Shown here one piece after another: positions 15,815 through 60,105 of a stretch of DNA of 64,000 nt. Position numbers and translations under genes: made by a program. Every line of letters begins with the position of its first letter. Position 1 is the first letter of the stretch. Origin of the DNA: Siphonodentalium dalli (taxonomy: Eukaryota > Mollusca > Scaphopoda > Gadilida > Siphonodentaliidae); assembly GCA_032622095.1 (NCBI GenBank), contig CP136068.1:121277989-121341988 (forward strand), written 5' to 3'. The notes beneath the pieces are model-generated. The model saw nothing but the letters and a program-made list of their open reading frames with translations, ran no database searches and was not told the DNA's origin.

Positions 15815-16178
15815 CCCTTTCAGTGCCAGGGTTTAATTGTTTTTAGGTATGCTTAAGCATGCTATAGCGAATTTAAAAATTACTGGATAAAACCTTAGGG
15901 GCATGTTATAACTCAAAACTATCACCAAGTATTCATAGTAATAATTTTGATGCCCATGAAAAACCTAAGATTCCCTGGCACTAAACCTACAAAATAAGTC
16001 TGTTAAAGAATATAAGAAAAATTGTAAAAAATAATAACAAATGATGAAAAATTGTTAGGCCAATGCATTCTCTTATATATACGAGGCGACCTATGGTCGA
16101 CTCGCATATATAAGAGAATGCATTGGCACAGGGTATATGGGTTGATACAAAAATCGGACCTGGCACTGAAAGGGTTAA
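15811..16178. mobile_element. TTAA-type MITE, family B copy 1
   Basis: TTAACCCTTTCAGTGCCAGG at the left, TGGCACTGAAAGGGTTAA at the right, TTAA on both sides. It contains one copy of the shared ~70-bp hairpin cassette (16061-16128) and a long AT-rich left half with ATGCTTAAGCAT. Non-coding, piggyBac-like by ends and target site. Confidence 0.85.
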
Positions 16179-16213
16179 GCAGTTTAATTTCAGAAAAAGT
16201 ACTGTGATTCTTG

Positions 16214-16812
16214 GAAATTAGGATGATATAGTACATATAATCATACATAGAATCGTATATCCTCAGCTGATCCTATGATATAGTACATAGAATCATACAT
16301 AGAATCGTATATCCTCAGCTGATCCTATGATATAGTACATAGAATCATACATAGAATCGTATATCCCAGGATGATATAGTACTTCGAATCATACATAGAA
16401 TCGTATATCCCAGGATGATATAGTACATAGAATCATACATAGAATCATACATAGAATCGTATATCCTCAGCTGATCCTATGATATAGTACATAGAATCAT
16501 ACATAGAATCATACATAGAATCGTATATCCTCAGCTGATCCTATGATATAGTACATAGAATCATACATAGAATCATACATAGAATCGTATATCCTCAGCT
16601 GATCCTATGATATAGTACATAGAATCATACATAGAATCGTATATCCCAGGATGATATAGTACTTAGAATCATACATAGAATCGTATATCCCAGGATGATA
16701 TAGTACATAGAATCATACATAGAATCGTATATCCTCAGCTGATCCTATGATATAGTACATAGAATCATACATAGAATCATACATAGAATCGTATATCCTC
16801 AGCTGATCCTGG
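16214..16812. repeat. Minisatellite, ~52-65 bp units
   Basis: About eleven units containing GATATAGTACATAGAATCAT, ACATAGAATCGTATATCC and, in most, TCAGCTGATCCTAT. Units differ by loss of the CTCAGCTGATC part or doubling of the AGAATCATACAT part, so the array has a mosaic structure. Confidence 0.9.
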
Positions 16813-17089
16813 GATGCATTTTTTGTCCGAGTCTGTATTCCATCATTTTCCAGTCAATTTTTTAAAACTTAGCAAATATGTCAAACAGCATGGGGACATG
16901 CGCAGCTGCGATTTTGAGTTCAGTCGGAGTAATTGACATTTTTTGACATAGAATTGTACATCCTCGGAGGCATCTTTGTCCGAACCTGTATGCTGTCATT
17001 TTCCAGTAAATTATTTTATTTGCCCATTGAAAAAATGTCTGTATTATGTGATTGATATGTTCGTCTGTCTGTCCGTCCATTAGCAGTTT

Positions 17090-17830
17090 TGGTTTCCGGT
17101 GATGACTTTAGTTTGGGTAATTTTATCGGAACTAAATTTGGTATGTGAGTTTTCCAGACCAAGTTACAGGTCAGTTCGAATTTGGGTTCGTTCCGATTAT
17201 TTTGTACTGACTAAGTCTGACTTAAATGGCTCTTATCGACTTAGAATTTTCAATATTTGAGGTTTCCGGATGATAACTTTAGTTTGGGTTATTTTATCGA
17301 AACCAAATTTGGTATGTGAGTTTTCCAGACCAAAATACAGGCCAAGTTCGATTATAGGTTCGTTCCGAATATTTTTTACTGACAAATGGCTCTTTTTAAC
17401 TTAGAATTTTCAATATTTGAGGTTTCCGGATGATAACTTTAGTTTCGGTTATTTTATCGAAACCAAATTTGGTATGTGAGTTTTCCAGACCAAAATACAG
17501 GCCAAGTTCGATTATAGGTTTGTTCCGAATATTTTTTACTGACAAATGGCTCTTTTCAACTTAGAAATTTAAATATTTGAGGTACCAAATTTGATCTGTG
17601 AGTTTTCCAGACCAAAATATAGGTCAAGTTCGAATATGGGTTTGATCCGAATATGGGTTTGATCCGAATATTTTTTACTGACTTATGGCTCTTTTCAACT
17701 TAGAATTTTCAATATTTGAGGTTTCCGGATGATAACTTTAGTTTGGTTTATTTTATCGGAACCAAATTTGGTATGTGAGTTTTCCAGACCAAAATACAGG
17801 TCAAGTTCTATTTTTATGTTCAGACTGCAT
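17090..17830. repeat. ~160-bp tandem repeat (GGTTTCCGGATGATAAC unit)
   Basis: Four to five units, each with GGTTTCCGGATGATAACTTT, AACCAAATTTGGTATGTGAG, TTTTCCAGACCAAAATACAG and ACTGACAAATGGCTCTTTT. One unit (about 17579-17700) has lost its start. Related single units occur near 51700-52060 and 52700-52920. Confidence 0.85.
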
Positions 17831-18360
17831 GGAATGATAAATGAACTTCATAAATGTACCACAGACCCTATTAACATAGCTTGTTTTTTATTTGACTTAG
17901 AAAATTCAGCATCCGCCATAATATCATTTCCAATACTACAATTTAGTGTCACTGCCATTGTTTGTTTGTGTACAGTTCATAAAAGCACACCAGGCGTATT
18001 TTAAACTTGGCACAGATATTAACCATCATTAGAACCTGGGATTCTGAGTTTGGTTGGACCCATTTTGGTGTTCTTGCAATTTTTGCCAATTTTTCTTAAT
18101 TTTCAGCTCGTTAGTGAAATAACTTGAACGAATATTGACTGATTTTAACAATGTTTAGCATAGGATCTGGTTTTCAAAATATCTTGGAATGAGTTCAAAA
18201 ACCAGATTTGTCCAATTTTTTTCTACCACAGTTATGGCCCTTAGTTTTCCCCAATATTTGAGGTTTCCAGATGATGACTGTTATTCTGAACATAGCCAAT
18301 CCTTCAGTTAGCCACCATGTCGGGGGATATTGTGGTCGGTCGACCTTTTATTTTATTAGA

Positions 18361-18397
18361 GGAGTGGATAGCTCAGTTGGTTAATGGGCTGACCTCA
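18361..18397 (+). repeat. tRNA-like 5' fragment (possible SINE head)
   Basis: GGATAGCTCAGTTGGTTAAT contains a good Pol III A box (TAGCTCAGTTGG) in the context of a tRNA acceptor/D-arm. No B box follows and no cloverleaf can be completed, so this is a truncated tRNA-derived SINE or tRNA relic, not a tRNA gene. Confidence 0.45.
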
Positions 18398-18729
18398 GAA
18401 AGAACAATCGTAAATGTCCAAATATAAAATATCACAATACAAACCCTTTACTGAAACTTTTTAACTTTCTTTCTTTATCATTCTATTGAATACTCAGCAT
18501 AAAATGAATGCCTCCCCAAATTGAGCTACAGTATCACTGACACTTTCATTGAACCATGCCACAATAGTTATTCCCTTGAAATACGATTTTCTCTCGATTT
18601 CTTATCATGGAAGTTGTCTTACTCCAATAAGTCTTTTTATTTTTCAGGTACTGCATCTGTTGGTTAACAAAGGCTAAATGTGGATTGTTCATAAGAAGTA
18701 ACTCTAGTGTGCTGAAGACTCTGCTCAAA

Positions 18730-18868
18730 AGGAAACTGCTTGTAGTCCATCATATCAATAAATGCTGGGTCATATAGATTGCTTTACAAGTGTGTTACTT
18801 TGACTGCTTTCTAAGAAAGTACACGTACAAAAAACAATTAGGAAATTAAGAATATCCTGCATAAGAAA
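18730..18868 (+). promoter_or_regulatory. Putative TACO1 promoter / 5' leader
   Basis: The region just upstream of the chosen start has no clear TATA box or CpG-rich core. The transcription start cannot be placed from sequence alone. In-frame stop at 18839-18841. Confidence 0.25.
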
Positions 18869-21800
18869 ATGTCTGTAAATGTACTGTATCACAGGATTTG
18901 TTCATCAGTAGGAATGCTTCGATTTTTGAATAGATTGCCGTTATGTTCAGCAAAGTTCACTGAAGACTTCGTGACACAAATAAACAATCGTGGAATTAGT
19001 CACTTATGTGGAGGAGCTAACCGACAGATCTGGTATCAACCATGTCGATGTATGGCCGGTCATTCGAAGTGGCAAAATATAAAGGCCACCAAAGGAGAGA
19101 AGGATACAGCCCGATCATTACGGAATAGCAAAATATTCTACAAGATGCGGGTTGCAATAAAGAGTGAGTATGCTGTCTTAGCTGGGGCCCAACGATTCAT
19201 CAATTCACGAAGTTTGATTCTTGATTCTGTTCGCAGTATATGAACTCCACTATGTTGTCATTAATATCAAATGCTATGATCAAACAATTTCGTCGCTGAT
19301 TGGAATCTTTTACGACATTTCCCCATCAACTCCTCATACTTCCGATGTCAAACACACTGTCATAGACTCGTAATCACTTGCCATGACCTATTACGAAATC
19401 TGCTACAATGCACAGAAGCTGGGAAATAATGTCTTCTGCAACATAAGATTAACCCTTTACCCAACAAACCGGCCAAAACCGGCCAAATAAAGCTTCAACA
19501 GCCTAAAATATCTTCGGTCTGTCTCAATAGAACCATACAAATATGGATATCATTGGAACCGGCTCCTTGACCACATTGTGATAGTTACAGTTATGCCCTG
19601 TGCCAATGCATTCTCTTATATATGCGAGTCGACCATAGGTCGCCTCGCATATATAAGAGAATGCATTGGCCTAAAACAAATCTGTTTTTAACACTTTTTA
19701 CCATTTTTTCTTACATTCTTTAACAATTTTATAATTTTTAATGTGTTAAGCCAATGCATTCTCTTATATATGCGAGGCGACCTATGGTCGACTCGCATAT
19801 ATAAGAGAATGCATTGGCACAGGGCCGTTCTGTTGGGTAAAGGGTTAACCCTCTCATGACTGGAGCTGTGCTGGTGCAGCATTAAAGATCCTATGCCAGT
19901 GAATTATCTTCTATATGTGAGTCGCCGATATGGAGCCTTGTATATTTACATGTAAGAGAATGCACTGACTTACAAGGTAAATATTGTTATGCCAATGCAT
20001 TCTCTTATATATGCTTGGCTTCCTATGGGAGACTCACATATATAAGAGTTTGCATAGGAACAGTGTTTTCGAAAAATTTCAGGAAGCGCTCCAGTCATGG
20101 AAGGGTTGAAAAAGAATCAGTAAGGAAACCCGAACTACAAATATTTTCGTTTCGACCTTATATAGATGATAATGAGTGGAGAGTTTAACCCTTTGAGTGC
20201 CAGGTCGATTTTTGTATCAACCCATATACCCTGTGCCAATGCATTCTCTTATATATGCAAGTCGACCATAGGTCGCCTCGCATATATAAGAGAATGCATT
20301 GGCCTAACAATTTTTTATTGTTTTTTTTTACAATTTTTTACAATTTTAATAATTTATTCTTATATTCTTTAACAGACTTATTTTGTAGGTTTAGGGCCGA
20401 TGAGATCGGCCCCTGGCACTCAAAGGGTTAATGCACCATGGAGGTCATTGGGTACAACCGTAATATATTTTAATAAATTATTTATTGAAAATCTGATAAT
20501 CGTGATAGTTTTACTCCATTGTTATTTTATACTTTTGTGTCTAATTTACAATATAATGCTCTCACAGGTGATGGATCAGACCCTGCAGCAAATGCCGAGT
20601 TAGCTCGCTGTATCTCAGAAGCTAAGAAGAATGATATTCCAAGAAGCAGGATTGAAGATGTCCTCAAAGCAGGAGTATGTAGTTTACTATAGTCCATTTA
20701 TTTATCAGTCAAACCTTGAATGTTGAGCTAGAGTAATGCCCTAAATAATTGACTCAGTGAGAGCTTTCCGATGAATGGCAACAAGCCATATTTCCGACTA
20801 AATCCTGAAAATTACCCATAATTCTGCTGTGGTTAACCCTTTGGCGAGTAGAACGACATATATGTCGTCTATCGGTTGAGGAGTAGAACGACATATATGT
20901 CGTTTCAGGAAGTGTTATTTTATGTAGACATAACTTCAATAAATCATATGATTTATAAATGATTTGTATAGGACTTATTTTGATTAATATAATGTCCCGA
21001 ATGTATAAGTGCAATCGATTATGATAACACACGTTAACAAAAAATGCACATAAATTAAAACGAATTATTGGACACTTTTGACCCGAACTTGTTTATAATT
21101 ATTGCTTAATGCTATGACGTTGACGTTAAATTTACTCATGACGTTCATGTATATGACGTTACAGATACTCTCCAAAGGGTTAAGGAGTTGATTATTTAGG
21201 GCATTACTGTAGCTACACATTCGATAGTCAGAAATAAATAACAGGGAATTCCATTACTTCTAAGAAGCGTTATGTCAGTACTAGCCAATCACAACATTCC
21301 ACAGTAAAAAGATGAAGCCAATCAAAAGATTGTCAGTGTTCCTTCAGTGACCACGATTCCAGTATAGGGGTGCCACGATTAATTATATAATCAATGAACT
21401 GTTGATAAAGCAGATAAACCAGATGCACATTGATTGCAGGGTGACAGCCTTAATTGATTTTCACACTCTCCCAAAACCATGATTCTGTCATGATGTGTGA
21501 AAATGCTGTATAAACACGGACACTTCACAGGTGACCACAGAAGTGAAAAATGACTGACATGACAATGTAAACAATAGAAGGGGGAAAACTGCCACAGCTG
21601 GCAGGTTATAGCTGGCTACAGCCTGCGCACTCAAATACCACCATCAGTCGTTGACTCGTTCATATTCACAGTCGGACCTCCAGAGAGCTTGGATCGCCAC
21701 CTCTCAGGATGAACTCACCACCGTTAATACCAATTAGTGTCACTAATATGCTGGACGCCATGCATGTCACGCCTTGTCTGAGCTGGTCACTTCATGCTCA

Positions 21801-24800
21801 TAAAGGCGGATACCAGCTGGTTCTGGATTTCCAAACCGGCCCGGCACAGCCCTTTTCAGGGCTCCCTACCGGACCGGAAAATACCAGATCAGCATGGAAA
21901 CCACGACAAACGATGAACAAGAAAAAGAAGAAAACACCATCAAGGAAAAAAAGAGATGCCGAGAGACTAGCCGCGTGGAAAGAGAAGAAGGCGACGGATG
22001 TTACACCAGCCAGCTCCTCCCATGCAGTAGAGATCCCGGCCCAGTCTGTCCAGGAGATGGAATCACCACCACCATCGCCTCCACGGACAGACGCGGACAC
22101 CTCCGACTTCAACCCGAAGACTCCGGAATACATCGAGCCGGAGCCTGCCAATCCTATATCACCGGTAACCGAACAAGAAACAGATGCCACCCGCCTATGG
22201 AGAGAAAACTACATGACAGAATCATCTAAATATCTCGCCAGAGTAGACGAATCAATTAAGAAAGCAGAAGAGACTAGAATAAAAGCAGAAGAGACTAGAA
22301 TAAAAGCAAAGACAGTCTTAGACGAATTAGATCCACCGAAAAGTAAAAACAAAAAAAGGAAAAAACTAAAAGCAACCAGCAAAAACTAAACATCTCAACC
22401 TCACTTTGCCTCCGGTCAGCCTCCGCATCTGAACAGCATCAACAGCCTCAAAAATCGATCTCCATCGAATATATCAAGAAAGGGTGAAGGGACTTGCACA
22501 CTGCAGTCCGACCACCCTACCCGGCCTTCGGCCGGAAACGACTCAACAACAACTCAAATACGGCCACTATTTCTCAGCTGTTCAAAACATTGTATTATTT
22601 TATATAACATGCATGCATCTCACATTAGCTGTATAAAACTCTGCTTTCATTACTGTTTTGTTTAGGTATATATATTTATAAAATAAACACAAATAGAAGC
22701 TCATAAAATTACATAAACTTCATCACAATTATATAAAAAGATGAATTAAATTAATATTTTTTTATTAACATTCCACTCATGAGCATATTTGGGCATACCT
22801 CCTGCAAAAATCTCCCGGATGGCCATTTTCAAAACTTAACAGGTCTGATACTGCATGAAGGTTATAAGCAACTAAATACTTGAAATTATGCCCCTTGGCA
22901 TTTGTGTAGGGAAACTCGAGTCAGCATAAAAAAAATACCGGCAGCTGAATGGTGTACAATATCTTCGGTTGTTTAATGTGAAAAGAAAAAAGAAATTCAT
23001 AGGCTATGTTAATTCCTCGGCCATTTGTGTGGGATTGTTCATCAAGCGGCTACATTGGTCGCCAAATTTGGTAGGGGGTGGGGGTATTTTTCTATATTAA
23101 AATTTTGTGCACAAAAGGGGGTAGTTGTGGAAATGCCAATTTATATCCAGGAATAAGTATGGTGATGCACCATTTCTTTTTTGACAACTTATGTCCGACA
23201 TGGAGTTCTACGCGCAAAAGTATTTAAAGTTTGGCTCAGTAGGGTAATGAATCGTCGGGATGGCTTAACCCTAACACTGTCGCCTATGGGAAATATTTAG
23301 TTGATTGTAACCTGAAGCAACCATACAGATTGCAAATACAGATTACCTGTATGTGAAGGATAAACAATTATCTCTGTAGCAGTGTGGCACTGCTGCCATG
23401 GACCAAAGTTTAATACAGGTATATCATATATCAATGCTAATGTGTCAGGTGGTCAGTTTGGAGAATATTAAGACTTCCACTCCACACATTCACATATACA
23501 TGTACTATCTGATTTGCTAACTCAAATAATTTACGTAAGTGTTCATATTTCATGTTGAAATTTATGACATACTAATCACCTGTATCCTTTGGTATTATTT
23601 GTTGGTTTGCTTAATAATATTAACCCTGTCCTACATTCCACAGACACTTGCTATCGACTGTAATAACTCACATATTTTTCACCCAACCATTATCATGGTT
23701 CATATCCAGATCTACCGTGACACTCTTTAAGCATGTATAGATTTTGGTATCAATTGACCGTTTTTTGAAACATTAACCCGACTCTATATATCACTAATAT
23801 ACTTCATTTATTGTCATTTTCCAGAATTCTCAGAAATCACATACTGTTGCTATAGTAACACTATTTTTGAGGCAACTAAGCGTTAAGAAGCTTGTCAACA
23901 TTGGTTTCCAATCTCCAGTATATGGGCTTTAAGAACAAATATGTTGCCATAATTCCCCAATTTTTTTTTACAAACCCGTTTTTTTTTACAAATGACAGGC
24001 CACTGCTTAGCAGAAATTATTCTTTTGTGGTATGTCAGTTTATAGTTTCCTTCGACATAAACCAGCCAATGAAATCGGTATGGATATTAATGGTTTACGT
24101 CGAAGTACAGTTGCCTTACTCTTCTATAGTCAAGCCTTGAAATAGGGTGTCTGTCATTTGCAGAATGAGGTCCCCAGAGGGTGAATTTAGTGATGCTACC
24201 CCGCATAGCGGGCTAGCATCACCAAATTCACCCTCTGGGGAAATCATTCTGCTTACACCTCAGCAGAATGAGGTTCCCAGAGGGTGAATTTGTTGATGCT
24301 AGCCCACTATGCGGGGTAGCATCACTAAATTCACCCTCTGGGGACCTCATTCAAGGCTTGTCTATAGTGGAATAAGCGTAAATCACATACTCATCTAAAA
24401 TCCCCAGTGACGATAATAAAATCTCACAATTATCACAGTAATCCAGTTTATTCATAGAAAACATATTTGTTCTGAACTCCACAAAAGTTGTCAACTGAAA
24501 TTAGTAATTTAATGTGAAAAATATTTTATATCACAATGTTTACATAAATTCAAAGAATATAAATTTTTTGACCTCGCAAACTTCGTAACAATTCGGGTCT
24601 TCTCTAGATGTAAACAAACAGATCAAATGTGAGTTTAGTCCTAATTATGCGGCATATTCTGTGTGAAGTTTTACACAACAGTTAGATTATAATACATTTT
24701 ATGACCGAAGTTATCATGTTTTCCAATAAATATAGCATTTTCTATTGAATTGTATGATAAAGTAGATTGAAATTGACGAAAAATCTCGCCACTGGATCTG

Positions 24801-27800
24801 GGTGTAAAGTCTGCTTTAGAAAAGTAAGGCAACCATCCTTCGATGTAAACCAGTATTATCCCTACTGATTTCACTAGCTGGTTTACGTCAAAGGAAACTT
24901 GGGAATAGTCAGTTTGTAGATAAATAACTTGAAAAAGTAGCCATGTCCTCTAGAGAATAAAACTTCTTTTTTTTTTCACTGTATGCAGTCAGCGATGAAA
25001 GATCAGATTCAGAGCTATACACTCGAGCTGCAGGGACCTGGACGGTGTTGTATTATTATTGAAGTAGATTCAGACAATATAAGAAAGCTAAGAAATGATT
25101 TGTCTCCTGGGCTCAAAGGAAAATTTGGGTGAGTTTTCACAGCCAGCTTATATTAACCTTTTCTTTACTGAACATAGTTCGCGCTGCCACTTGCCAAATT
25201 TGCCAATGGCAAAAATAATTCACATTTGGCAAAAAATATTTTCATTTGACAACAATGTTGGCAGTCACTTTTGATTCATCAAGAAAGTTTAATATTTGTC
25301 AACCAATACCACTCATTTCAGGAAACTCTTTCATTAATCGTATTATTGGTGGTGATTTATAAGGTTATGAAAAGTTAACACCTCTATCAAGATGCAGTTA
25401 ACCTGATATCATTAGTAATGGGTGGAGGGTTTGCTATTTTATGTCTGGTGGTGGTGTTTACATAGCTAATCCTCTTTGTTTCATCTTCTGATGAAGAAAC
25501 CCTTATGCAATTTCACTGTTATGCCATTGGTTTATTGTTCTCTGATAAAACCAAGTATAGAGGCGAGAATTATTGATAATGAACTGCTTTCCTATCGATA
25601 TCAAAGGTCGCTCAAGCAGCGATTGTCGATATAATCAAAATAAAAGACACAATGTTGTAGAAACTGATAGCATTTGGCAACTTCTAACAGCATTTGGCAA
25701 AAATTATTTTCATTTGGCAAAAGTAAAATATTGGGCCAGCGCGGACCCTGTCACTGAATACTCATTGACAATTATTTCCCTTATGAAATGTTCAGATAAT
25801 ATTAAAGTTGAACAAATGATATGTTGTTTGTTTGTTGAACTTATTATCTGAACATTTCCCCACCAATGAATATGAATTCTTCTGATCTTGTATCATCTTT
25901 TTGTATGTCTGTTGTCTGGTCATTTTCTATGAATATAAGAGAATGCACTGGCACAGGGCCTTTTATGCTGTGCCAGCGCAGCTCCCATCATGAAAGGTTA
26001 ATAAAATATCAACAAAGAACATATTACTGTCAACAACATCAAGTGACCACAACAGCGTAATATGTTCCACATTAAATAAATGTACAAAATATCCATCTAT
26101 CCTCAGTTCGATGTTCTCTATTAAACTAGGTCAAAATGGTTGCCACAAGGTGGCACAAATTATGCATTCAGTTGTCAAGGTGTCTGTGATGTTGCTACTG
26201 ATGACCCTGAGAATATAAAAATGGATGATGTTCTGGGTACTGCTATTGAAAGTGGAGCAGAAGACGTAACTATGGAAACCGATGAAGAGGGCAAGAAATT
26301 TCTTCGGGTGAGTTTTATTGAAATGCATGTAAATTAATGGTTGCCAATTTATTAATGCTTAAAATTAGATTGTATTGCAGGGAAGAATATTGTCATCCAT
26401 CCATAAAAATATTTTGTTGCATGTGACTATCTTGGATTTCTGTTATATTTTCCTTCAGCATGCCCAGAGCCTTTAACCTCGAGTCCTGATCCTATAACAT
26501 TTTATCCGGCGCTGACTGCCTCCATAAATCCTGATTGATAAACATTAAGTTTATTATGCCAACACCTGTTTATTTGGTGAACATAGCTTTATTAGGTGAG
26601 TATTACTTTCATGATGTAATTATATGGGCAAATTGCGCAGATAACTCGGGACGTCAACCAGACTAAATGACGTCCTTATGATTCGGAACATTTTATCATA
26701 ACTCGGGACATCAACCAGACTAAATGACGTCATTATGATTCGGAACATTTTATCATCCCTAACTCACTCCAATTGATACAAAATGATAAAAACAGGAATT
26801 GTTATTCGTTCTGAAATATCTATAAACTATTAGAGAAAGGTTAGTATCAAACAAGTGCCCAACAACCAAAGAACTATTTATTTTTCTTCTGCACTCCGGT
26901 TTGCCACATCATGAGTACTACTGCAATTGGTTTTGATTCCATTGACATCAATTTTCGTGGTTTGTCATCAAAAGGCTTTTTTATCGGTACATGAATTCGT
27001 GGATCATATATCATTTTTATGCACATCAACATGTCCTACAATAGCAGCTGCATGACAAAAATTATTTGTACTATTGAGAAATTTGACCCCAAGGTATTCC
27101 TGCACTGATAGCACATCACGCAATCATTAACATAACAGCTACCAGCTTCATTTCAAACTTTGGTCAAGTAGGTATTTATTATATAATGCATTCTGCACGA
27201 TGTGACTAGCAAACCAATAGCCTTTAAAGAAACCAATGCATTGAGTATTGTTATATAAACTATCACAGCCGAGATCAGATGATGTAGCATATCAGTTGCG
27301 GTGAATGAATGATATTGTATTGAAAAAGATTACGTTTCATCTCGTCTTCTGTGTTTTTCTGCATACATTTTACGACTTATCGAAAACAGACGTCTCGTAT
27401 ATTATATGGGTTTTTGCTCATTCCACGCAAGAGTCGATTATTTCGTTGGTTGTTAAAGGTACTCAATCCGATAAAACTCCTCTCAATTACTATTTCAATG
27501 GCTTCGGGGGTCAAAAATATTTGATTCGAGTCGAGGAAGTCACCCATCAAAGCTCAGATTTGTTAGATATTGATTTTAGAAATCTATTATTTTTCATTAT
27601 CGGGAATTCTTTCTGGCCCAGAAGACAGTCAAAATTTTGTTATTATTACCTCTTGATTATAGAGTTATCCATCCTTGTCTGTTTGAATAGAGTTTTGGCG
27701 TAAAATCTCGAGCAGGTTACCAAATTGACGGCAGTTATTAGTACTCATCTTGAGCAATTAACAAATTTCAAAAATCAATATCTAATAACTCTGAGCTTTG

Positions 27801-30476: not shown

Positions 30477-30657
30477 GATTCCCACTAGGCCAGTGGGGGT
30501 CCGTAAAACGGACCCGTGTTTGGTGCCCAATAAAAATTTAAAAAAAGGAGACGTCAATAAATATAAATGGAAATATTTTGAAAAAGTCTTGTTGGATTTG
30601 GATTCTGATGCCCAGTCACCAATGCCACAAACTACAACAGATCAATGTTTTTCAGGG
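30477..30657 (+). CDS. Candidate internal exon of an unrecognised gene, ending where the satellite starts
   Basis: After an acceptor AGCTATCCCAG the frame reads IPTRPVGVRKTDPCLVPNKN, then KKGDVNKYKWKYFEKVLLDL and DSDAQSPMPQTTTDQ. It stays open to a possible donor TTCAGG/GTGGGA at 30657/30658. Composition looks like protein rather than random AT-rich ORF. The exon would enter and leave in phase 2. The next exon that fits is at 50725, 20 kb away. No homologue recognised; an upstream exon was not found. Confidence 0.3.
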
Positions 30658-30999
30658 TGGGATAAATGTTTGTTCTGGGGACCTGTCGATTGATCTTGAA
30701 TCTGAGATACGTTTGATTACTCATGATGGGATAAATGTTTGTTCTGGGGACCTGTCGATTGAATTTGAGATATGTTTGATTACTCATGATGGGATAAATG
30801 TTTGTTCTGGGGACCTGTCGATTGATCTTGAATCTGAGATATGTTTGATTACTCATGATGGGATAAATGTTTGTTCTGGGGACCTGTCGATTGAACTTGA
30901 ATTTGAGATAAGTTTGATTACTCATGATGGGATAAATGTTTGTTCTGGGGACCTGTCGATTGAACTTGAATTTGAGATATGTTTGATTACTCATGATGG

Positions 31000-33300
31000 G
31001 ATAAATGTTTGTTCTGGGGACCTGTGGATTCATCTTGAATCTGAGATATGTTTGATTACTCATGATGAGATAAATGTTTGTTCTGGAGACCTGTGGATTG
31101 ATCTTGAATTTGAGATATGTTTGATTACTCATGATGGGATAAATGTTTGTTCTGGTGACCTGTGGATTGATCTTGAATTTGAGATATGTTTGATTACTCA
31201 TGATGGGATAAATGTTTGTTCTGGGGACCTGTGGATTGATCTTGAATCTGAGATATGTTTGATTACTCATGATGGGATAAATGTTTGTTCTGGGGACCTG
31301 TGGATTGATCTTGAATTTGAGATATGTTTGATTACTCATGATGGGATAGATGTTTGTTCTGGGGACCTGTCGATTGATCTTGAATTTGAGATATGTTTGA
31401 TTACTCATGATGGGATAAATGTTTGTTCTGGGGACCTGTGGATTGATCTTGAATTTGAGATATGTTTGATTACTCATGATGGGATAGATGTTTGTTCTGG
31501 GGACCTGTGGATTGATCTTGAATTTGAGATATGTTTGATTACTCATGATGTGATAAATGTTTGTTCTGGGGACCTGTCGATTGAACTTGAATCTGAGATA
31601 TGTTTGATTACTCATGATGGGATAAATGTTTGTTCTGGGGACCTGTGGATTGATCTTGAATTTGAGATATGTTTGATTACTCATGATGGGATAAATGATT
31701 GTTCTGGGGACCTGTCGATTAATCTTGAATCTGAGATATGTTTGATTACTCATGATGAGATAAATGTTTGTTCTGGGGACCTGTCGATTAATCTTGAATC
31801 TGAGATATGTTTGATTACTCATGATGGGATAAATGTTTGTTCTGGGGACCTGTGGATTGATCTTGAATCTGAGATATGTTTGATTACTCATGATGAGATA
31901 AATGTTTGTTCTGGGGACCTGTGGATTGATCTTGAATCTGAGATATGTTTGATTACTCATGATGGGATAAATGTTTGTTCTGGGGACCTGTGGATTGATC
32001 TTTAATTTGAGATATGTTTGATTACTCATGATGGGATAAATGTTTGTTCTGGTGACCTGTGGATTGATCTTGAATCTGAGATATGTATGATTACTCATGA
32101 TGTGATAAATGTTTGTTCTGTGGACCTGTGGATTGATCTTGAATTTGAGATATGTTTGATTACTCATGATGGGATAAATTTTTGTTCTGGGGACCTGTGG
32201 ATTGATCTTGAATCTGAGATATGTTTGATTACTCATGTTGGGATAAATGTTTGTTCTGGGGACCTGTAGATTGAATCTGAGATATGTTTGATTACTCATG
32301 ATGGGATAAATGTTTGTTCTGGGGACCTGTGGATTGATCTTGAATTTGAGATATGTTTGATTACTCATGATGGGATAAATGTTTGTTCTGGGGACCTGTA
32401 GATTGAATCTGAGATATGTTTGATTACTCATGATGGGATAAATGTTTGTTCTGGGGACCTGTGGATTGATCTTGAATTTGAGATATGTTTGATTACTCAT
32501 GATGGGATAAATGTTTGTTCTGGGGACCTGTGGATTGATCTTGAATTTGAGATATGTTTGATTACTCATGATGGGATAAATGTTTGTTCTGGGGACCTGT
32601 CGATTGATCTTGAATTTGAGATATGTTTGATTACTCATGATGGGATAAATGTTTGTTCTGGTGACCTGTGGATTGATCTTGAATTTGAGATATGTTTGAT
32701 TACTCATGATGGGATAAATGTTTGTTCTGGGGACCTGTAGATTGAATCTGAGATATGTTTGATTACTCATGATGGGATAAATGTTTGTTCTGGGGACCTG
32801 TGGATTGATCTTGAATTTGAGATATGTTTGATTACTCATGATGGGATAAATGTTTGTTCTGGGGACCTGTGGATTGATCTTGAATTTGAGATATGTTTGA
32901 TTACTCATGATGGGATAAATGTTTGTTCTGGTGACCTGTCGATTGATCTTGAATCTGAGATATGTTTGATTTACTCATGATGGGATAAATGTTTGTTCTG
33001 GGGACCTGTCGATTGATCTTGAATTTGAGATATGTTTGATTACTCATGATGGGATAAATGTTTGTTCTGGGGACCTGTGGATTGATCTTGAATTTGAGAT
33101 ATGTTTGATTACTCATGATGGGATAAATGTTTGTTCTGGTGACCTGTGGATTGATCTTGAATTTGAGATATGTTTGATTACTCATGATGGGATAAATGTT
33201 TGTTCTGGTGACCTGTGGATTGATCTTGAATCTGAGATATGTATGATTACTCATGATGTGATAAATGTTTGTTCTGTGGACCTGTGGATTGATCTTGAAT
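31000..33300. repeat. Higher-order block, first copy
   Basis: This ~2.3-kb run of variant monomers recurs in the same order 5146 bp further on (about 36150-38450). The shared markers include the extra-T frameshift (32967/38113), the GATGTTTGTTC variants and the 60-bp monomers. It points to segmental duplication within the array. Confidence 0.8.
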
Positions 33301-41411: not shown

Positions 41412-41632
41412 GCCTTGAAATAGGGTGTCTGTCATTTGCAGAATGAGGTCCCCAGAGGGTGAATTTAGTGATGCTACGCCGCATAGCGGGCTAGCATCAC
41501 CAAATTCACCCTCTGAGAACCTCATTATGCTGAGGTGTAAGCAGAATGAGGTCCCCAGAGGGTGAATTTGGTGATGCTAGCCCACTATGTGGGTAGCATC
41601 AATAAATTCACCCTCTGGGGAGCTCATTCTCA
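41405..41632. mobile_element. Family E MITE copy 3, truncated by the duplication breakpoint
   Basis: CAAGCCTTGAAATAGGGTG left end and both hairpins are present. The sequence stops at GGGGAGCTCATTCT and jumps into satellite. The missing right end is present in the other copy. Confidence 0.9.
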
Positions 41633-43877: not shown

Positions 43878-43907
43878 AAATGACAGACACCCTATTTCAA
43901 GGCTTGG
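43654..43907. mobile_element. Family E MITE copy 4, complete, 8-bp TSD
   Basis: CAAGCCTTGAAATAGG ... CCTATTTCAAGGCTTG, flanked by perfect GATGAGAT on both sides. Two hairpins with arms GAGGTCCCCAGAGGGTGAA and TTCACCCTCTG. Confidence 0.93.
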
Positions 43908-47665: not shown

Positions 47666-48256
47666 TTAACCCTTTCTATACTAAATACTCAATGACAAGT
47701 ACAGTAATGCCCTAAATAATCAACTCCTTAACCACAGCAGAGTTATGGGTAACTTTTCAGGATTTAGTCGGAAATATGGCTTGTTGCCATTCATCGGAAA
47801 GCTCTCAGAGAGAGATTTCCGATGAATGGCAACAAGCCATATTTCCGACTAAATCCTGAAAAGTTACCTCTGAGAGCTTTCCGATGAATGGCAACAAGCC
47901 ATATTTCCGACTAAATCCTGAAAAGTTACCCATATTGAGAGCTTTCCGATGAATGGCAACAAGCCATATTTCCGACTAAATCCTGAAAAGTTACCCATAA
48001 TTCTGCTGTGGCTAAGGAGTCAATTATTTAGGGCATTACTGTCGATCCCTTTGGAAATGTTCAGGTAATATATCAACAATCATTTTATCTGAACATTGCC
48101 CATCGAATAATATGAATCCTTCTGCACTTGTATTATCTTTTCATCTGTCTGTCGTCTGCTTTTATTACCTGAACATCCATCAAAATGAACAATAGACCAT
48201 TCCTCTGTATACTTTTATAGTTGAATGGTAGAATTCATTCAGTATAGAAAGGGTTA
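47666..48256. mobile_element. TTAA-type element, family I, with a nested family G element
   Basis: TTAACCCTTTCTATACTAAA at the left, TCAGTATAGAAAGGGTTA at the right. The right TTAA is mutated to TTAC. The interior carries the TTCTGCACTTGTATTATC phrase. Family G is inserted at 47702-48043. Confidence 0.75.
47702..48043. mobile_element. Family G foldback element, uninterrupted by other insertions
   Basis: CAGTAATGCCCTAAATAATC ... ATTATTTAGGGCATTACTG. The interior consists of alternating inverted copies of TTTCCGATGAATGGCAACAA and GCCATATTTCCGACTAAATC, one unit being repeated three times. It contains CTCCTTAACCACAG, the empty site for the family F insertion in the 20732 copy. Confidence 0.85.
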
Positions 48257-48348
48257 CTGTAGCTGTCATGAACGGAATGGTTATTTTGAGGTGAGGATAG
48301 TTTTCTTCAAAATTTGACTTCATGGTCTCAAAACAAAGAATATGCTTT

Positions 48349-48863
48349 TCATGATGGGAGCTTCCTGAATTTTTGTGAAAACCCTGTGCCAATGCATTCT
48401 GTTATGTATGTGAGTCGACCATAGGTCGTCTCGCATATAAAGAGAATGCATTGGCCTAGCAAATTTTATATTTATTTTTTATAATTGTTAAAAAATGTAA
48501 GAATCAAAATTTAAAAAAATGATAAAATATTGTTTAAGAATATAAGAAATAATGATAACAAAATGTTAAAAATTGTTAAAGAATGTAAGAAAAATTTATA
48601 AAAATTTATAAATAATGTAAGAAAAAAGACAAAATGATAAAATTGTTAAAGAATATAAGAAAAAATGATATAAAAAAAGATAATAATTGTTAAAGAATGT
48701 AAGAAAAATTGATAAAAAAAAAAGATAAAAAATTGTTAGGCCAATGCATTCTCTTACATATACAAGGCGACCTATGGTATGGTTGACCTGAATATATAAG
48801 AGAGTGCATTGGCACAGGGTCTTTAATGTTACGCCAGGGCAGCTCCCATCATGAAAGGGTTAA
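48349..48863. mobile_element. TTAA-type MITE, family A-like copy 4, expanded spacer
   Basis: Right end CTCCCATCATGAAAGGGTTAA is intact; the left end TTTTCATGATGGGAGC has lost its TTAACCC. Hairpin cassettes at 48389-48456 and 48737-48815. The spacer holds many AATGTAAGAAAAA-type repeats and is longer than in other copies. Confidence 0.75.
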
Positions 48864-48950: not shown

Positions 48951-49373
48951 TTAAAGGTACTCAATCCGATTCGATGGTCCCCATATCAGATTACAACAAC
49001 ATAAACAACATTTTTTGAAATACCCCTTCAGTTGACAGAATCGATTAATTGCCCAAAAATAATGCTAACCAGTATAAACTTATCCAAAACATGTTATTTA
49101 TCAACATTTTGTTCAATGAAATATGACCGGATTGTCAACGCCAAAGCCACTTGATTTTAGAATTATCCATCTTCATCTGCAATTTGGTCCGAGACCGTAG
49201 GTTTAATGACTTTTTACCAGGCCACCAATCTCGAGAAATAACAAATTTCAAAAATTGATATCTGATCACTCAGCTTTGATGAGTGGGTTCCTCTACTCAA
49301 ATCAAATATGTTTTACCCCAAAGCCAAAGAAATAGTAATTTGGGAGTGTTAATTCAGGTTATGCATCTTTAAA
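48951..49373. mobile_element. Family C element
   Basis: TTTAAAGGTACTCAATCCG at the left, GGTTATGCATCTTTAA at the right. Collinear with the copies at 27453, 53927 and 54894. It contains the TTAA sites that are occupied by family D MITEs in those copies. Confidence 0.75.
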
Positions 49374-49833: not shown

Positions 49834-50034
49834 TTAACCCTTTCAGTGCCAAGTCCAATTTTTGTATCAAACCATATTTCCCTGATAATTTTTCAAATTT
49901 ATTGATTATAATAATGTGATACATTGATGGAAAGAGCTCTTAATGTATCACATTATTATAATTAATGAAATTTGAAAAATGATCAAGGAAATATGGGTTG
50001 ATACAAAAATCGGACTTGGTACTGAAAGGGTTAA
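49834..50034. mobile_element. TTAA-type palindromic MITE, family B ends without the cassette
   Basis: TTAACCCTTTCAGTGCCAAG and TGGTACTGAAAGGGTTAA with TTAA on both sides. The 201-bp element is a nearly perfect single palindrome (ATAATAATGTGATACATTGA / TAATGTATCACATTATTATA). It lacks the shared hairpin cassette carried by the other family B copies. Confidence 0.87.
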
Positions 50035-50160: not shown

Positions 50161-50622
50161 AAAGCCTGATTATAGTGTGTCTGTCATTTGCAGAATGAGG
50201 TCCTCAGAGGGTGAATTTAGTGATACTATCCCGCTCAGTGGGCTAGCATCACTAAATTCAACCTCTGAGGACCTCATTCTGCTTAGGCCTCATTTTCTCT
50301 GGAAAAGTTTCTTAATTATAAAATTTCTATAGAAACTTCTTCACATAGATTCTATTTCTTTTTTTAGTTTAGTTTCTCTATATCCCCAAATTGGCAGACG
50401 ACACATTGCATAATCGAGGTTCCCAATGGGTGCACATCACAATATTCACAATTTGAGAAATTCAATCTGAGTCTCTGTCTCCCATAGCAGATGAGATCAT
50501 GCAGAATGAGATCCCCAGAGGGTGAATTTTGTGATGCTAGCTGGCTCTGCGGGATAGTGTCACTAAATTCTCCCTCTGGGGACCTCATTTAGCAAATGAC
50601 AGGAACACTAAACTCAGGCTTG
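50161..50622. mobile_element. Family E MITE copy 6, 8-bp TSD (one mismatch)
   Basis: AAAGCCTGATTATAGTGTG at the left, ACACTAAACTCAGGCTTG at the right. Flanks GCTATGAT and GCTATCAT. The long spacer (about 160 bp) is in reverse order relative to copy 2. Confidence 0.9.
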
Positions 50623-51639: not shown

Positions 51640-52070
51640 ATTGGGGCACTATAGAAATGAGCGGTGTCAGTCCATCTGCATGTCTTCTTCCAAAATGTTT
51701 GTTGCCCAGATGATAACTTGGAAGTTGAATAGTATTTTGACAGAAATTTATTAAACTTGGTATGTGTCTTTCATATGACAAACTACCGATCAAGTTCAAA
51801 TTTGGATCCGGTCCAACAATTTATGGCAGAATTATGTCCCTTTTAACCCTTTGAGTGCCAGGGGCCGATCTCATCGGCCCTAAACCTACAAAATAAGTCT
51901 GTTAAAGAATATAAGAATAAATTATTAAAATTGTAAAAAATTGTAAAAAAAAAAATAAAAAAAATTGTTAGGCTAATCACATGAAAGTACAGGTGACGTG
52001 AGAATTTGGGTTCGGTCCGACCATTTCTGACAGAGTTATGCCTTTTTTCGTCTTAGAATTTTTTAATTTA
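51640..52070. repeat. Family J-like repeat interrupted by a family B MITE
   Basis: AACTTGGTATGTGTCTTTC, AAGTTCAAATTTGGATCCGG and GGCAGAATTATGTCCC, then after the MITE AATTTGGGTTCGGTCCGACC and GACAGAGTTATGCC. Same style as 17090-17830. Confidence 0.6.
51845..51975. mobile_element. TTAA-type MITE, family B, 3'-truncated
   Basis: TTAACCCTTTGAGTGCCAGG, then GGCCGATCTCATCGGCCC and an A-rich tract ending TTGTTAGGCTAATC. The hairpin cassette and the right end are missing. Confidence 0.75.
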
Positions 52071-52966: not shown

Positions 52967-53701
52967 CAAGCCTGAGTTTAGTGTGGCTGTCATTTGCAGA
53001 ATGAAGTCCCCATGCAGGCGGGTGAATTAACCCTTTACCCAACAGAACGACCCTGTGCCAATGCATTCTCTTATATATGCGAGTCGACCATAGGTCGCCT
53101 CGCATATATAAGAGAATGCATTGGCTTAACACATTAAATATTATAAAATTGTTAAAGAATGTAAGAAAAAATGATAAAAAGTGTTAAAAAAAGATTTTTT
53201 TTAGGCCAATGCATTCTCTTATATATGCGAGGCGACCTATGGTCGACTCGCATATATAAGAGAATGCATTGGCACAGGGCATAACTGTAACTATCACAGT
53301 GTGACGCTATCCCACATAACAGTCTAGCATCACCAAATTCACCATATGGGGACCTCATTCTGCATGGCCCCATATGCTATGGGAGACTTAGACTCAGATT
53401 GAAGTTCCCAGATGGTGAATATTGTGATGTACACCCATTGGGAACCTTGATTATGCAACGTGTCATCTGTCAATTTGGGGACATAGTCAAAGAGAAACTA
53501 AACTAAAAAAGAAATAGAATCTATGTGAAGAAGTTTCTATAGAAATTTGATAATAAAGAAACTCCAGAGAATGAGGTCAGCAGAATGAGGTCCCCAGAGG
53601 GTGAATTTAGTGATGCTAGCCTGCTATGCAGGATAGCATCACTAAATTAACCCTCTGGGGACCTCATTCTGATTATGACAGGCACACTAAACTCAGGCTT
53701 G
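52967..53701. mobile_element. Family E MITE copy 7, 8-bp TSD, with nested family D MITE
   Basis: CAAGCCTGAGTTTAGTG ... CACTAAACTCAGGCTTG flanked by perfect ATCAGTAG (52959-52966 and 53702-53709). The left hairpin is broken by the MITE at 53027-53303. Confidence 0.93.
53027..53303. mobile_element. TTAA-type MITE, family D, 3'-truncated, inside family E
   Basis: TTAACCCTTTACCCAACAGA at the left. Two hairpin cassettes (53048-53124, 53200-53278) in opposite orientation, then GGGCATAACTGTAACTATCA. The sequence breaks off there into family E. Confidence 0.8.
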
Positions 53702-53926: not shown

Positions 53927-54757
53927 TTAAAGGTACTCAATGCGATTTGGTGGTCCCCATTTAATCAGTTTCAACATTTTTAGAAATGTTGCTTCAGTTA
54001 TCAGAATTGATTAATTACCCCAAAATTATGCTAACCACTGCCAACTATAGTATAAAATTGCCCGAAACGTGTTATTTATCAATATGTTGTTCGATGAAAT
54101 TTGGCTTTAATATCAACAGAAAGCCTCTTGATTTTAGGGTTAACCATCTTCATCCGCATTTTGGTCTGAGACTGTCGGCTCGTCGACTGTTTAACCCTTT
54201 ACCCAACAAACCGGCCAAAACCGGCCAAATAAAGCTTCAACAGCCTAAAATATCTTCGGTCTGTCTCAATAGAACCATACAAATATGGATATCATTGGAA
54301 CCGGTTCATTGACCACATTGTGATAGTTACAGTTATGCCCTGTGCCAATGCATTCTCTTATATATGCGAGTCGACCATAGGTCGCCTCGCATATATAAGA
54401 GAATGCATTGGCCTAAAAAAATAACACTTTTTACCATTTTTTCTTACATTCTTTAACAATATTATAATTTTTAATGTGTTAAGCCAATGCATTCTCCTAT
54501 ATATGCGAGGCGACCTATGGTCGACTCGCATATATAAGAGAATGCATTGGCACAGGGCCGTTCTGTTGGGTAAAGGGTTAATGGGCCACTAATAATTCTT
54601 GATGGTGAAAAATTATAGCTTTTAAAAATTGATATCTAATAACTCTGAGCTTTGATAGGTGGGTTCCTCGATTCAAATATTTTTTACCCCCGAATCCAAA
54701 TAAACAGTAATTGAGGGGCGCTTACCGGTAATCGGATTATGCATCTTTAATATGATT
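53927..54757. mobile_element. Family C element with nested family D MITE
   Basis: ATTAAAGGTACTCAATGCG at the left, ATCGGATTATGCATCTTTAA at the right. Interrupted at a TTAA by 54191-54581. Confidence 0.78.
54191..54581. mobile_element. TTAA-type MITE, family D copy 3
   Basis: TTAACCCTTTACCCAACAAA ... TTGGGTAAAGGGTTAA with TTAA on both sides. Two hairpin cassettes at 54342-54412 and 54484-54553. The related family C copy at 49208 has a single TTAA at the equivalent place. Confidence 0.88.
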
Positions 54758-54893: not shown

Positions 54894-55690
54894 TAAAGGT
54901 ACTCAATCCGACCCTTTACCCAACAAACCGGCCAAAAACGGCCAAATAAAGCTGCAACAGCCTAAATTATCTTGGGTCTGTCTCAATAAAACCATACAAA
55001 TATGGATATCATTGGAACCGGCTCATTGACCACATTGTGATGGTTACAGTTATGCCCTGTGCCAATGCATTCTCTTATATATGCGAGTCGACCATAGGTC
55101 GCCTCGCATATATAAGAGAATGCATTGGCCTAAAAAACTCGTTTTTTAACACTTTTTACCATTTTTTCTTACATTCTTTAACAATTTTATAATTTTTAAT
55201 GTGTTAAGCCAATGCATTCTCTTATATATGCGAGGCGACCTATGGTCGACTCGCATATATAAGAGAATGCATTGGCACAGGGCCGTTCTGTTGGGTAAAG
55301 GGTTAAGCACCCCTAAATTACTATTTCTTTGGCTTCAGGGGTAAAAAATATTTGATTCAAGTCAAGGAACCCACCCATCAAAGCCCAGAGTGATCAGATA
55401 TTGATTTTTGAAGTTTGTTATTTCTCGAGATGTGTACTAATAATTGTCACAGAAACACTTATTCAAACGGACGAAGGTGGATAACTCTAAAATCAAGTGG
55501 TAATAATAACGCAATTTTGACCGAGACCATCCTTTTGACGGCGTGTTTCTTGGCCACAAACAATAGAAATAACAAAACTTCAAAAATTGATATCTGATCA
55601 CTCTGATAATTCGAATCAAATATTTTCTACACCCGAAGCCAAAGAAATAGTAATTTATGAGGGTCTGATCGGATTGAGTACCTTTAACAA
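54894..55690. mobile_element. Family C element with nested family D MITE (second case)
   Basis: TTAAAGGTACTCAATCCG at the left, CGGATTGAGTACCTTTAA at the right. Interrupted near its left end by 54910-55306. Confidence 0.8.
54910..55306. mobile_element. TTAA-type MITE, family D copy 4
   Basis: ACCCTTTACCCAACAAACC at the left (left TTAA lost), TTGGGTAAAGGGTTAA at the right. Two hairpin cassettes at 55052-55131 and 55206-55278. Confidence 0.85.
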
Positions 55691-56446: not shown

Positions 56447-56637
56447 GTAAGAAATTCATGAGGAATAGAGTATCGTCTAATGTACAACAACCAATCAATG
56501 AAGGACCTCTTGATCCTCTTGGGGCTGAAACCTCCACAAAACCCAATAAACCGAGCCTTGAAGAGGCAACACAGCAGGTTGATTGGAATGGTGCTGACAC
56601 ATATTGGAAAGTAACGAGCTATTTACTAGATATCTGA
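56447..56637 (+). CDS. Candidate terminal exon of an unrecognised gene
   Basis: Acceptor TTCTGATTAG then GT completing a codon. The frame reads KKFMRNRVSSNVQQPINEG, then PLDPLGAETSTKPNKPSLEE and ATQQVDWNGADTYWKVTSYL before LDI and TGA (56635-56637). The composition is clearly protein-like, and the phase matches the donor at 50951. The tail is rich in polar residues and has no recognised domain. An AATAAA lies ~1.1 kb downstream (about 57727). Confidence 0.5.
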
Positions 56638-56989
56638 AGTGAAATGTCACCCTGCCCCACATGAAATGGGCACAGAAGCCACTTGGTGAGGAAAATGTGG
56701 GTATATGCTACATGTAGCTAATACTCAGCTTTCAGTTGTCCTTTTTGTACAACTGAAATGGTTATGTTCTGGGTCTGTCCCTCTGGGTGTCCGTCCGTTT
56801 GCTTTTTTTCATTTTTGGTTGGATAACTTTGGTAAGACTGAAAATTTGGTATGCAGGTATATTAGCACAAAATATTGGTCAAGTTTGAATTCGGGTTCCT
56901 CCCAGTATTTTATTAAAGACCGTGTGCCAATGTATTCTCTTATATATGTGAGTCAACTGTTTTAGTCATGTTTGGGCTATTGCCATTGG

Positions 56990-57640: not shown

Positions 57641-57810
57641 ATAGTTTACTTTCCTTCTTCTTTTATATCATTCTATTCATTGTTCAGCAAAAACTTAAAA
57701 AAGGATGACAAACAGCTTTTTCAAAAATAAAATAGACAAAACTGAAGATTGTGCATATTATTTGTCTATAGAGGTATAACAAAGTGGTTTATTTCTGATG
57801 CTTCCCCGCA

Positions 57811-57931
57811 TAATTATTAGAGGTTATTACTTGGTCAGTCGAATATCGGCCGTGATATCTGCACGAGGTAATTTCATATCAGCCTGAGACCTGATATCCA
57901 ACTAACCAAGTAATAACCTCGTTATTAATTA
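57811..57931. repeat. Foldback GAGGTTATTACTTGGT
   Basis: TTAGAGGTTATTACTTGGT and its complement ACCAAGTAATAACCTCGTTA enclose ~70 bp that also pairs partly (GATATC motifs). Possibly one end of a larger element: GATATCAGCC motifs recur to 58335. Confidence 0.75.
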
Positions 57932-58687
57932 GATCAACAGTTTATGGTAATACCATCACTATATCCATACCAATTTCAGTTCATCGGTGTAAATATAAAA
58001 TTGAATAGACAGATATAATATGAACGAAATAACTAAATTTACATCTTAAATACAATATTGAAGATTTGTAAATTTGTGTATGACCACGTACATTATATCC
58101 GAGTAGATATTCATGATTTCCATTTAAATTACGGAGTAAATACCAGTTCGAAATAACTTGAAACACACCATGAAACGTCATTACATCAAGTCCATTGTGA
58201 AATTGTCATTATATCGGCCTAGCACGCTGACTGCATCCCCGAATGGCTGTTACGTTTGATGTAAACACTATGCTTTGCTCGGTGACATCAGCCATGTTTA
58301 GTGAGTTATCAGCCTGGTTTGGAGTGATATCAGCCGAGGTCAATAATAGGTCGCCCAAGGCAAAAATATATAATTATTAACCAGTAAAATCTCTCAGTTG
58401 AAATAAAACTTTCCTTGATTGAGGGTGCTAACAGCATAGAGTTCTCCCGCTTGGTACACTACAAACATTTTCGGAAGATTTCTGTTCTAAAAATATCCCA
58501 TTTTACTGTTCCGGGAATGTATTAAGAAATTCTAAAATTCTAAATCAAACTGATATTAATTGATAAAAGCTTTTCTGGACAGGTGTCCTCGACTCCTCGT
58601 ATTATTTTATACCCCATAATCTATGAAATTTGTCAGGAAAAGATACACTATCTTATAAACAAGTGCAATGGCAAGTGTGGTATATAA

Positions 58688-58710
58688 CCCCCCCCCCCCC
58701 CCCCCCCCCC
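58688..58710. repeat. Poly-C run (23 C)
   Basis: Uninterrupted cytosine homopolymer; length likely inexact in any assembly. Confidence 0.9.
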
Positions 58711-58978
58711 ATAAATACTGTGAGGGTTTATCAGATCAAAATTCCTTGACTATATTGCCAAAAAGTGAAGCACAATGCTAATGTTTGGATGTTATCAACA
58801 TTAATAGTTATCTCCCATACATGGACATTTGACACCCAAATGTCAATTTTCAAACACAGGTATCAAATATCCATTTACCTCTGAATTTGCTGAAGATAAC
58901 AATTTTGTCCCCACAACAATAGTGATACAATCTGGTTTTGGGTGCTTTGTTAGCGGATTCTCTCATTCACAACCACAC

Positions 58979-59368
58979 CAAAGCCTGCAAATAGTCTGTC
59001 TGTCATTTGTAGAATGAGGTCCCCAGAGGGTAAATTCAGTGATACTATCCCACTGCATGCTAGAATCACTAAATTCACCCTCTGGGAACCTATTCTGCTT
59101 TAGGCCTAATCTTCTGGGAGGTTTCTATATGCCTCAAAATGCAGAATATAAAATGCATAATCGATGTGACTAATGGGTGAACATCACCAAATTCAACTGG
59201 GGAACTTCAATCTAATCATAGGTCTCTTATATAGTTGAGGCCTAAGCAGAATTAGGTTTCCAGAGGATGAATTTATTGATGCTAGCCCGCTATGCGTGAT
59301 AGCATCACTAAATTCACCCTCTGGTGACCTCATTCTGCAAACGACAGGCACACTAAACTGAGGCTTGG
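58979..59368. mobile_element. Family E MITE copy 9, diverged
   Basis: CAAAGCCTGCAAATAGTCTG ... CACTAAACTGAGGCTTG. Both hairpins are eroded and the spacer has a MITE-specific TTGAGGCCTAAGCAGAAT. No target duplication visible. Confidence 0.8.
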
Positions 59369-59630
59369 ATAAAAACTTGAAGATAATGTTTGTTCGATTG
59401 CAGTGAGTAGACCCATAATAATTAATATATCACCTGTATTCTGTATTATATTTGTCATGTTTCGCTGTGTGGGAAAATTGTTAACTATCGTTAGGACTAT
59501 ATGTTTGATGAGGATTTGTTTATTTGGATAATATTTACAGGTTTTACAAAAAATTTGGATGCCCAATAAGTCAATTCCCATTTGGGTCATGTGTTTCATA
59601 CCCAAATAAAACACACCATAAAATGAACTG

Positions 59631-60105
59631 TTAACCCTTTCAGTGCCAGGTCCGATTTTTGTATAAACCCATATACCCTGTGCCAATGCATTCTCTTATA
59701 TATGCGAGTCAACCATAGGTCGCCTCCCATATATAAGAGAATGCATTGGACTAACAATTTTTCATCATTTGTTATTATTTTTTACAATTTTTTACAATTT
59801 TAATAATTTTTTCTTATATTCTTTAACAGACTCATTTTGTAGGTTTAGTGCCTTGGAATCTTACGTTTTTCATGGGCATCAAAATTATTACTATGAATAC
59901 TTGGTGATAGTTTTGAGTTATAACATGCCCCTAAGGTTTTATCCAGTTTGTTTTTAAATTCGCTATAGCATGCTTAAGCATACCCAAAAAAAAATTCAAC
60001 CCAAAAATATCTAAAAAAAAAAAAAAAAAAAAAAATTTTTAGGGCCGATTTTACAGACGGTAAATTAGGGCCGATGAGATCGGCCCCTGGCACTGAAAGG
60101 ATTAA
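59631..60105. mobile_element. TTAA-type MITE, family B, long form
   Basis: TTAACCCTTTCAGTGCCAGG ... GGCACTGAAAGGATTAA with TTAA on both sides. Hairpin cassette at 59685-59752. The right half contains the inverse of the AT-rich left half of the copy at 15811 (CTATAGCATGCTTAAGCATA) and a 22-base A run. Confidence 0.85.

Follow-up and report, generated by a model that had tools for sequence, protein, structure and literature searches.

A hairpin cassette shared by several families of short transposable elements was analyzed in a 64-kb stretch of the genome of the scaphopod Siphonodentalium dalli (hereafter the window, i.e., the 64,000 nucleotides at positions 121,277,989–121,341,988 of the forward strand of contig CP136068.1, assembly GCA_032622095.1). 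The elements have the form of miniature inverted-repeat transposable elements (MITEs) with TTAA at their ends and fall into families A, B, and D; the cassette is common to families with unrelated ends, and the ends and the core differ in history. A typical cassette measures 67 nt and contains a 31-bp stem, and for the hairpin at 19603–19669 a DNA fold was obtained at −33.2 kcal/mol (z −14.2), in which a 3-nt loop is closed by a stem of 26 + 5 base pairs. The cassette arm gave 37 matches at three or fewer mismatches (shuffles, 0/100), and the loop gave 13 matches against 0.02 expected, one of which (58339, three mismatches) did not lie within any cassette. All counts are from this one window, and the pairwise counts are non-independent. 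Nineteen full hairpins were found in 11 TTAA elements, namely, eight in four A elements, three in three B elements, six in three D elements, and two in a D variant; the B elements carried a single cassette, and the A and D elements carried two, inverted relative to each other. This is in agreement with a preliminary description of the same DNA, which had reported about 20 hairpins in families A, B, and D, one in each B element and two opposed in A and D. The range it had given, 16061–59752, does contain cassettes, but four further ones at 599–1345 fell outside it. The elements with full cassettes are as follows:

549–820, + strand: family D element; hairpins at 599–677 and 707–771; ends TTAA and TTAG
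1132–1394, + strand: family D element; hairpins at 1183–1239 and 1269–1345; ends TCAA and TTAA
15811–16178, − strand: family B element; one hairpin at 16060–16126 by the b1 end; TTAA on both sides
19449–19848, + strand: family A element; hairpins at 19603–19669 and 19751–19817; TTAA on both sides
19845–20109, + strand: family D element; hairpins at 19896–19969 and 19992–20058; ends TTAA and TTGA; left TTAA common with the A element at 19449–19848
20185–20431, + strand: family B element (short); one hairpin at 20236–20302; TTAA on both sides
48346–48863, − strand: D variant; hairpins at 48389–48454 and 48741–48812; TTAA at 48860–48863 only
53027–53303, − strand: family A element, long arm truncated; hairpins at 53058–53124 and 53206–53272; TTAA at 53027 only
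54191–54581, + strand: family A element; hairpins at 54345–54411 and 54484–54550; TTAA on both sides
54912–55306, + strand: family A element; hairpins at 55062–55128 and 55209–55275; tip exact, left TTAA missing (54905–54915)
59631–60105, + strand: family B element (long); one hairpin at 59683–59749; TTAA on both sides; b2 tip TCCTTT

Exact TTAA was present on both sides of 5 of the 11 cassette elements and on one side of the other six. The intact tips were CCCTTT, CCCTTC, or CCCTCT, inverted, the lone exception being the b2 tip of 59631–60105, and families A, B, and D all retained the tip TTAACCCTTT or a near form of it. A clean record of insertion was provided by the cassette-free element at 20833, as copies of its host repeat without the element (47710–47800 and 47940–48040) are 96–98% identical and hold one TTAA or CTAA at the insertion point. 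Related element-less sites with a diverged TTAA were also found for the A element at 54191 (15470–15570 and 49175–49275). No piggyBac transposase domain was detected in 40 of the window's 81 open reading frames of at least 85 amino acids, shorter frames not being scanned. We infer that the cassette elements are piggyBac-type (TTAA) MITEs, presumably dependent on a piggyBac transposase. The TTAA at 19845–19848 is common to an A and a D element, as though two families had hit one target.

The context of the cassette is uniform, with CCCTGTG outside, followed by the hairpin and then by CCTAA and an AT-rich spacer. When each cassette was read inwards from the nearest element end, the orientation was the same in 19 of 19 full copies, and CCCTGTG or an altered form of it preceded all 19 hairpins. 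When an A cassette together with its flanking sequence served as the query of a profile search, this strand likewise scored higher in 19/19. The end contexts that can be counted as independent number only about five, and simple arithmetic puts the chance of a shared orientation alone at about 0.06. Homology across the five end contexts breaks off at an identical base, CCCTGTG. Such a sharp edge, together with the likeness of CCCT to the piggyBac tip and the existence of a degenerate cassette-like stretch at 28134 without visible TTAA ends, could be taken to mean that the cassette moves independently and enters MITEs by insertion, and separate movement had been put forward in the preliminary description. 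However, none of the 19 full copies in the window lies outside a TTAA element, neither TTAA nor any other direct repeat was seen to border the cassette, its orientation is fixed, and the adjoining spacer is shared as well, which makes separate movement very unlikely. A nested core element with CCCTGTG/CACAGGG as its tips was rejected as the leading explanation since the four flanking bases are TATG, ACGG/ACGA, TATA, and, in D, AAGA/AAAA-like, and never TTAA. The suggestion that CCAAT and TATATA motifs in the arms point to a promoter found no support, as the window holds CCAAT 165 times and TATATA 99 times. A Rfam scan of the window returned no family at or above threshold, and exact-pattern scans with the arm found 0 stretches in viral contigs and 0 in genome contigs, which is what a repeat of animal origin would be expected to give.

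Counted from the first base of the TTAA, the foot of the hairpin was reached after 49–52 bp in B (three ends) and D (seven ends), and in A after 31 bp (four short ends) or 154 bp (three long ends, the value for the 54912 copy presuming a full-length tip because the left TTAA is missing there). The constant spacing in B and D despite their unrelated ends, along with the identical orientation of all 19 hairpins towards the nearest end, would fit a subterminal transposase-binding site kept under selection in active lineages, with the sequence between tip and hairpin free to vary. The 19-bp palindromes in the ends of piggyBac are identical, lie asymmetrically relative to the tips, and are each bound by two cysteine-rich domains (CRDs), as described in PMC11707139, and the internal sequence of a MITE can alter its transposition rate (mPing, PMC9921582). 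A binding role of the hairpin is plausible by analogy with these palindromes in piggyBac ends, and the hairpin may possibly have been retained because it aids transposase binding. Nevertheless, the spacing in A and the elements without a cassette (49834 and 20833) argue against a strict requirement for the hairpin, B elements make do with one cassette only, and the stem is far longer than 19 bp. The B cassette is also no better conserved than the remainder of B, and in the three D elements no consistent excess of conservation over the ends was found (right cassettes differed by 0.09–0.19 and right ends by 0.09–0.12; left cassettes by 0.18–0.25 and left ends by 0.14–0.26). A selected binding site is rather unlikely as the explanation.

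The ends were compared as ten modules, one or two per type, without TTAACCCTTT (45 pairs, 300 shuffles each). With the first 10 bp disregarded and each end type represented once, comparisons between A, B, and D gave shuffle p values of 0.40 to 1.00, a resemblance at the level of chance. Against the two ends of a cassette-free C element, values of 0.040 and 0.037 were obtained for the short A end, which is unremarkable among 45 pairs, and the two ends of the same family gave 0.03 to 0.06 against each other. Between copies within a family, the identity was 95–99% for the long A end and 93–98% for b1. Spacer homology connects A, B, and the D variant, the observed score being reached by 0/300 shuffles in each of five between-family comparisons, and with few exceptions this homology has a single orientation. 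Weaker matches (p 0.00 to 0.12) were obtained with the short spacers of the remaining D elements. In pooled counts from four long-side A cassettes (the four short-side ones left out) and three B cassettes, A and B differed at 16/804 cassette positions (2%) and at 161/606 spacer positions (27%, multiple alignment). Within A, 0/402 cassette and 24/456 spacer positions differed, and within B, 8/201 and 9/191, cassette and spacer divergence both being 0–5% within families. The modular reuse of the cassette across families with unrelated ends, as originally proposed, is thus upheld. It might be argued that the three families share an old ancestry and that their ends have diverged past recognition around a protected cassette, as TTAACCCTTT or a near form is retained in all three and the tip-to-hairpin distance is equal in B and D. 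This is quite improbable, because the A and B cassettes are as similar as the B cassettes are among themselves, and the ends are at chance between families yet highly similar within them.

Trees built from the cassettes were short and weak (67 or 80 columns, with unsettled bootstraps). When they were constrained, the approximately unbiased test disfavored keeping all D together (p-AU 0.0195), all B together (0.033), and the D left cassettes with the left cassette of the variant (0.044); the values were 0.055 for all A together and 0.21 for the D right cassettes with the right cassette of the variant (five tests, uncorrected). The cassette data thus speak weakly against D as a single clade. The preliminary description had named two observations that would refute its proposal, an exact agreement of the cassette phylogeny with the end phylogeny and a cassette-free copy explained by simple deletion. 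Neither was made here, the A–B cassette divergence being no greater than that within B.

Single-copy substitutions were counted in cassette units (hairpin plus CCCTGTG) and elsewhere. The four A elements showed 1/592 in cassette units against 19/872 elsewhere (Fisher p = 0.0008), or against 10/558 when only the ends were considered (p = 0.005). In the three B elements, the counts were 4/222 in cassettes and 8/409 elsewhere (p = 1), the latter omitting a 140-bp b2 stretch found in two copies only (6/280 there). Between A and B, the cassettes differed (p = 0.02) and the remainders did not (p = 1). Gene conversion between paired inverted hairpins would yield such a contrast, and selection on dead copies would not. 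The stem pairs were also found to co-vary, with 13 cells changed on both sides against a shuffled mean of 5.5 (reached in 0/500) and 7/31 pairs affected; of the 19 cassettes, 13 distinct ones entered this sample and six more from A were omitted, one hairpin was one base short, and related rows inflate the result. This co-variation fits arm-templated correction or selection alike.

Copies with a broken cassette or none were also present, including partial copies at 25932 and 56921:

20833–21183, + strand: cassette-free TTAACCCTTT element; TTAA-insertion control; target copy with one TTAA at 47710–47800
25932–26001, − strand: D end fragment; broken within the hairpin arm
28134–28185, − strand: degenerate cassette-like stretch; nhmmer E = 0.0087; no TTAA ends visible
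49834–50034, no strand assigned: cassette-free palindromic element with the b1 end twice; aligns with its own reverse complement at 87.5% over 208 columns
51843–51973, + strand: half B element (b2 end and spacer); hairpin missing, with the element ending at its foot
56921–56958, + strand: half hairpin; broken close to the loop; weak D-like flank, by eye

The element at 49834–50034 had been described as a B element with the same ends and no cassette. It is indeed cassette-free, but it lacks the pair of ends seen in cassette-bearing B elements, as each of its sides carries b1, with 91% and 93% identity to the b1 end of 59631 over 44 bp, and its likeness to b2 is confined to the first 18 bp. Since b2 is missing beyond these 18 bp, the element is not B minus its cassette; instead of a simple deletion, it represents a single B end in palindromic form. 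Truncation at the hairpin as a rule was found to be weak, as 25932, 51843, and 56921 break in or at the hairpin but 53027 and 53881 break elsewhere. The D variant, with one tip lost, is also among the truncated copies.

These elements are probably common-core TTAA MITEs in which the ends have been replaced by unrelated ones around a shared subterminal hairpin, with homogenization in blocks of cassette size. The cores would descend from one another, and the outer ends would have been swapped for unrelated sequence that kept the tip TTAACCCTTT; with related cores and replaced outer ends, the families would differ by end turnover and not by a jumping cassette. The end switch may have occurred when excision or replication breaks were repaired, with recombination or template switching taking place at the foot of the hairpin. 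Gene conversion may in addition have homogenized the hairpin block, the clearest case being the two inverted copies of A. The MITE families of this window thus appear able to trade ends while a common core stays. A further proposal, in which the hairpin itself is a hotspot of recombination and gene conversion that permits modular end swaps between MITE lineages and the paired inverted hairpins are kept identical by conversion within the element, is unlikely; under it, a core that outlives one transposase could adopt the ends of another family and keep spreading.

Several observations weigh against end replacement with homogenization. The spacers are of low complexity, the A–B spacer mismatch falls to 9–22% under generous gaps, on the reverse strand one spacer comparison out of five (B20185 with the D variant) also beat all shuffles, and one of three cassette–spacer Fisher tests was non-significant (p = 0.088). 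The hairpin lies at other distances from TTAA in A than in B and D. The paired D cassettes are diverged from each other, with the left cassettes of the three D elements grouping at 98/98, so that conversion within the element is not general. All counts are small, since they come from a single 64-kb window. The D variant at 48346–48863, which combines D ends with A/B-type loops and an expanded AT spacer and has lost its low-coordinate tip, would not call for recombination if a parent similar to it gave rise to A and B. Its use as proof of recombination, on the basis of D ends around an A/B-like core, was dropped, as its right end is the most divergent D right end (0.19–0.25). By eye, its spacer (48454–48740) seems to have been expanded by TTGTTAAAGAATGTAAGAAAAA-like unit repeats.

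The closest known case is the coral CMITE of Acropora (Wang et al., 2010, PMC2872659), in which the internal region is described as better conserved between TTAA families than the terminal inverted repeats (TIRs); its authors regarded it as a mystery where that region came from, and suggested that it plays a role in transposition. CMITE is similar to the elements described here in its TTAA duplications, its CCCTTT-type tips, and its several families with different TIRs, and here, too, the core is more conserved between families than the ends. The left TIR reported for CMITE family VI, CCCTTTCACTGCCA, and the B tip, CCCTTTCAGTGCCA, differ by one base (PMC2872659). Unlike CMITE, with about 100 bp and one 75-base internal region, the complete elements here measure 247–518 bp and contain one or two inverted hairpins and an AT spacer. 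The likeness is one of organization as described in that paper. The ends of Trichoplusia ni piggyBac and of piggyBat also hold palindromes just within the tips, asymmetric from the tips in piggyBac; those reported are of 19 bp or less and are transposase-bound, whereas the stem here is 31 bp (PMC11707139).

The pearl-family MITEs of bivalves are likewise modular and molluscan, and DTC84 among them has a conserved palindrome close to a repeat junction; they differ in their internal tandem satellite-like repeats, and TTAA occurs 0 times in the main text of PMC5139131. According to the same source, palindromes serve as junction sites in one mollusc satellite, with 13/16 breakpoints located at the longer palindrome, which would fit breakage or switching at palindromes. 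In the foldback element Tetris, two of three complete elements have TIR-220 repeats that cluster with each other, which PMC4079207 reads as possible homogenization; Tetris differs in being a foldback transposon with tandem 220-bp TIR repeats and not a 67-nt hairpin. Besides CMITE, the literature search yielded no report of a hairpin core common to TTAA MITEs with unrelated ends, and a search with short cassette and end strings matched no paper.

The usual definition of a MITE family rests on its ends; if cores persist through end turnover, families are not equivalent to lineages, and the switching of MITEs between transposases can be tested with sequence data. The contrast of paired with single hairpins also offers a simple test of gene conversion within very small elements.

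Other features were also observed in the window. A TACO1-like exon lies at 18842–19243 (Pfam E = 3.4e-5, under the model cut-off; PDB TACO1 match, E = 8.5e-5). Repeats of 69 bp, in some cases 63 bp, form a long array of about 150 or more in-register copies, with long open frames on both strands, at 30621–40580 and 41860–42825, and a stretch of about 2 kb from about 39615 is repeated 2245 bp downstream in coordinates. A further abundant inverted-repeat family with CCTCTGGGGACCTCATTCTGC-like motifs is located at 24127–24352, 28434–28845, 41421–41630, 43666–43894, 50162–50622, 53571–53701, and 63549–64000.

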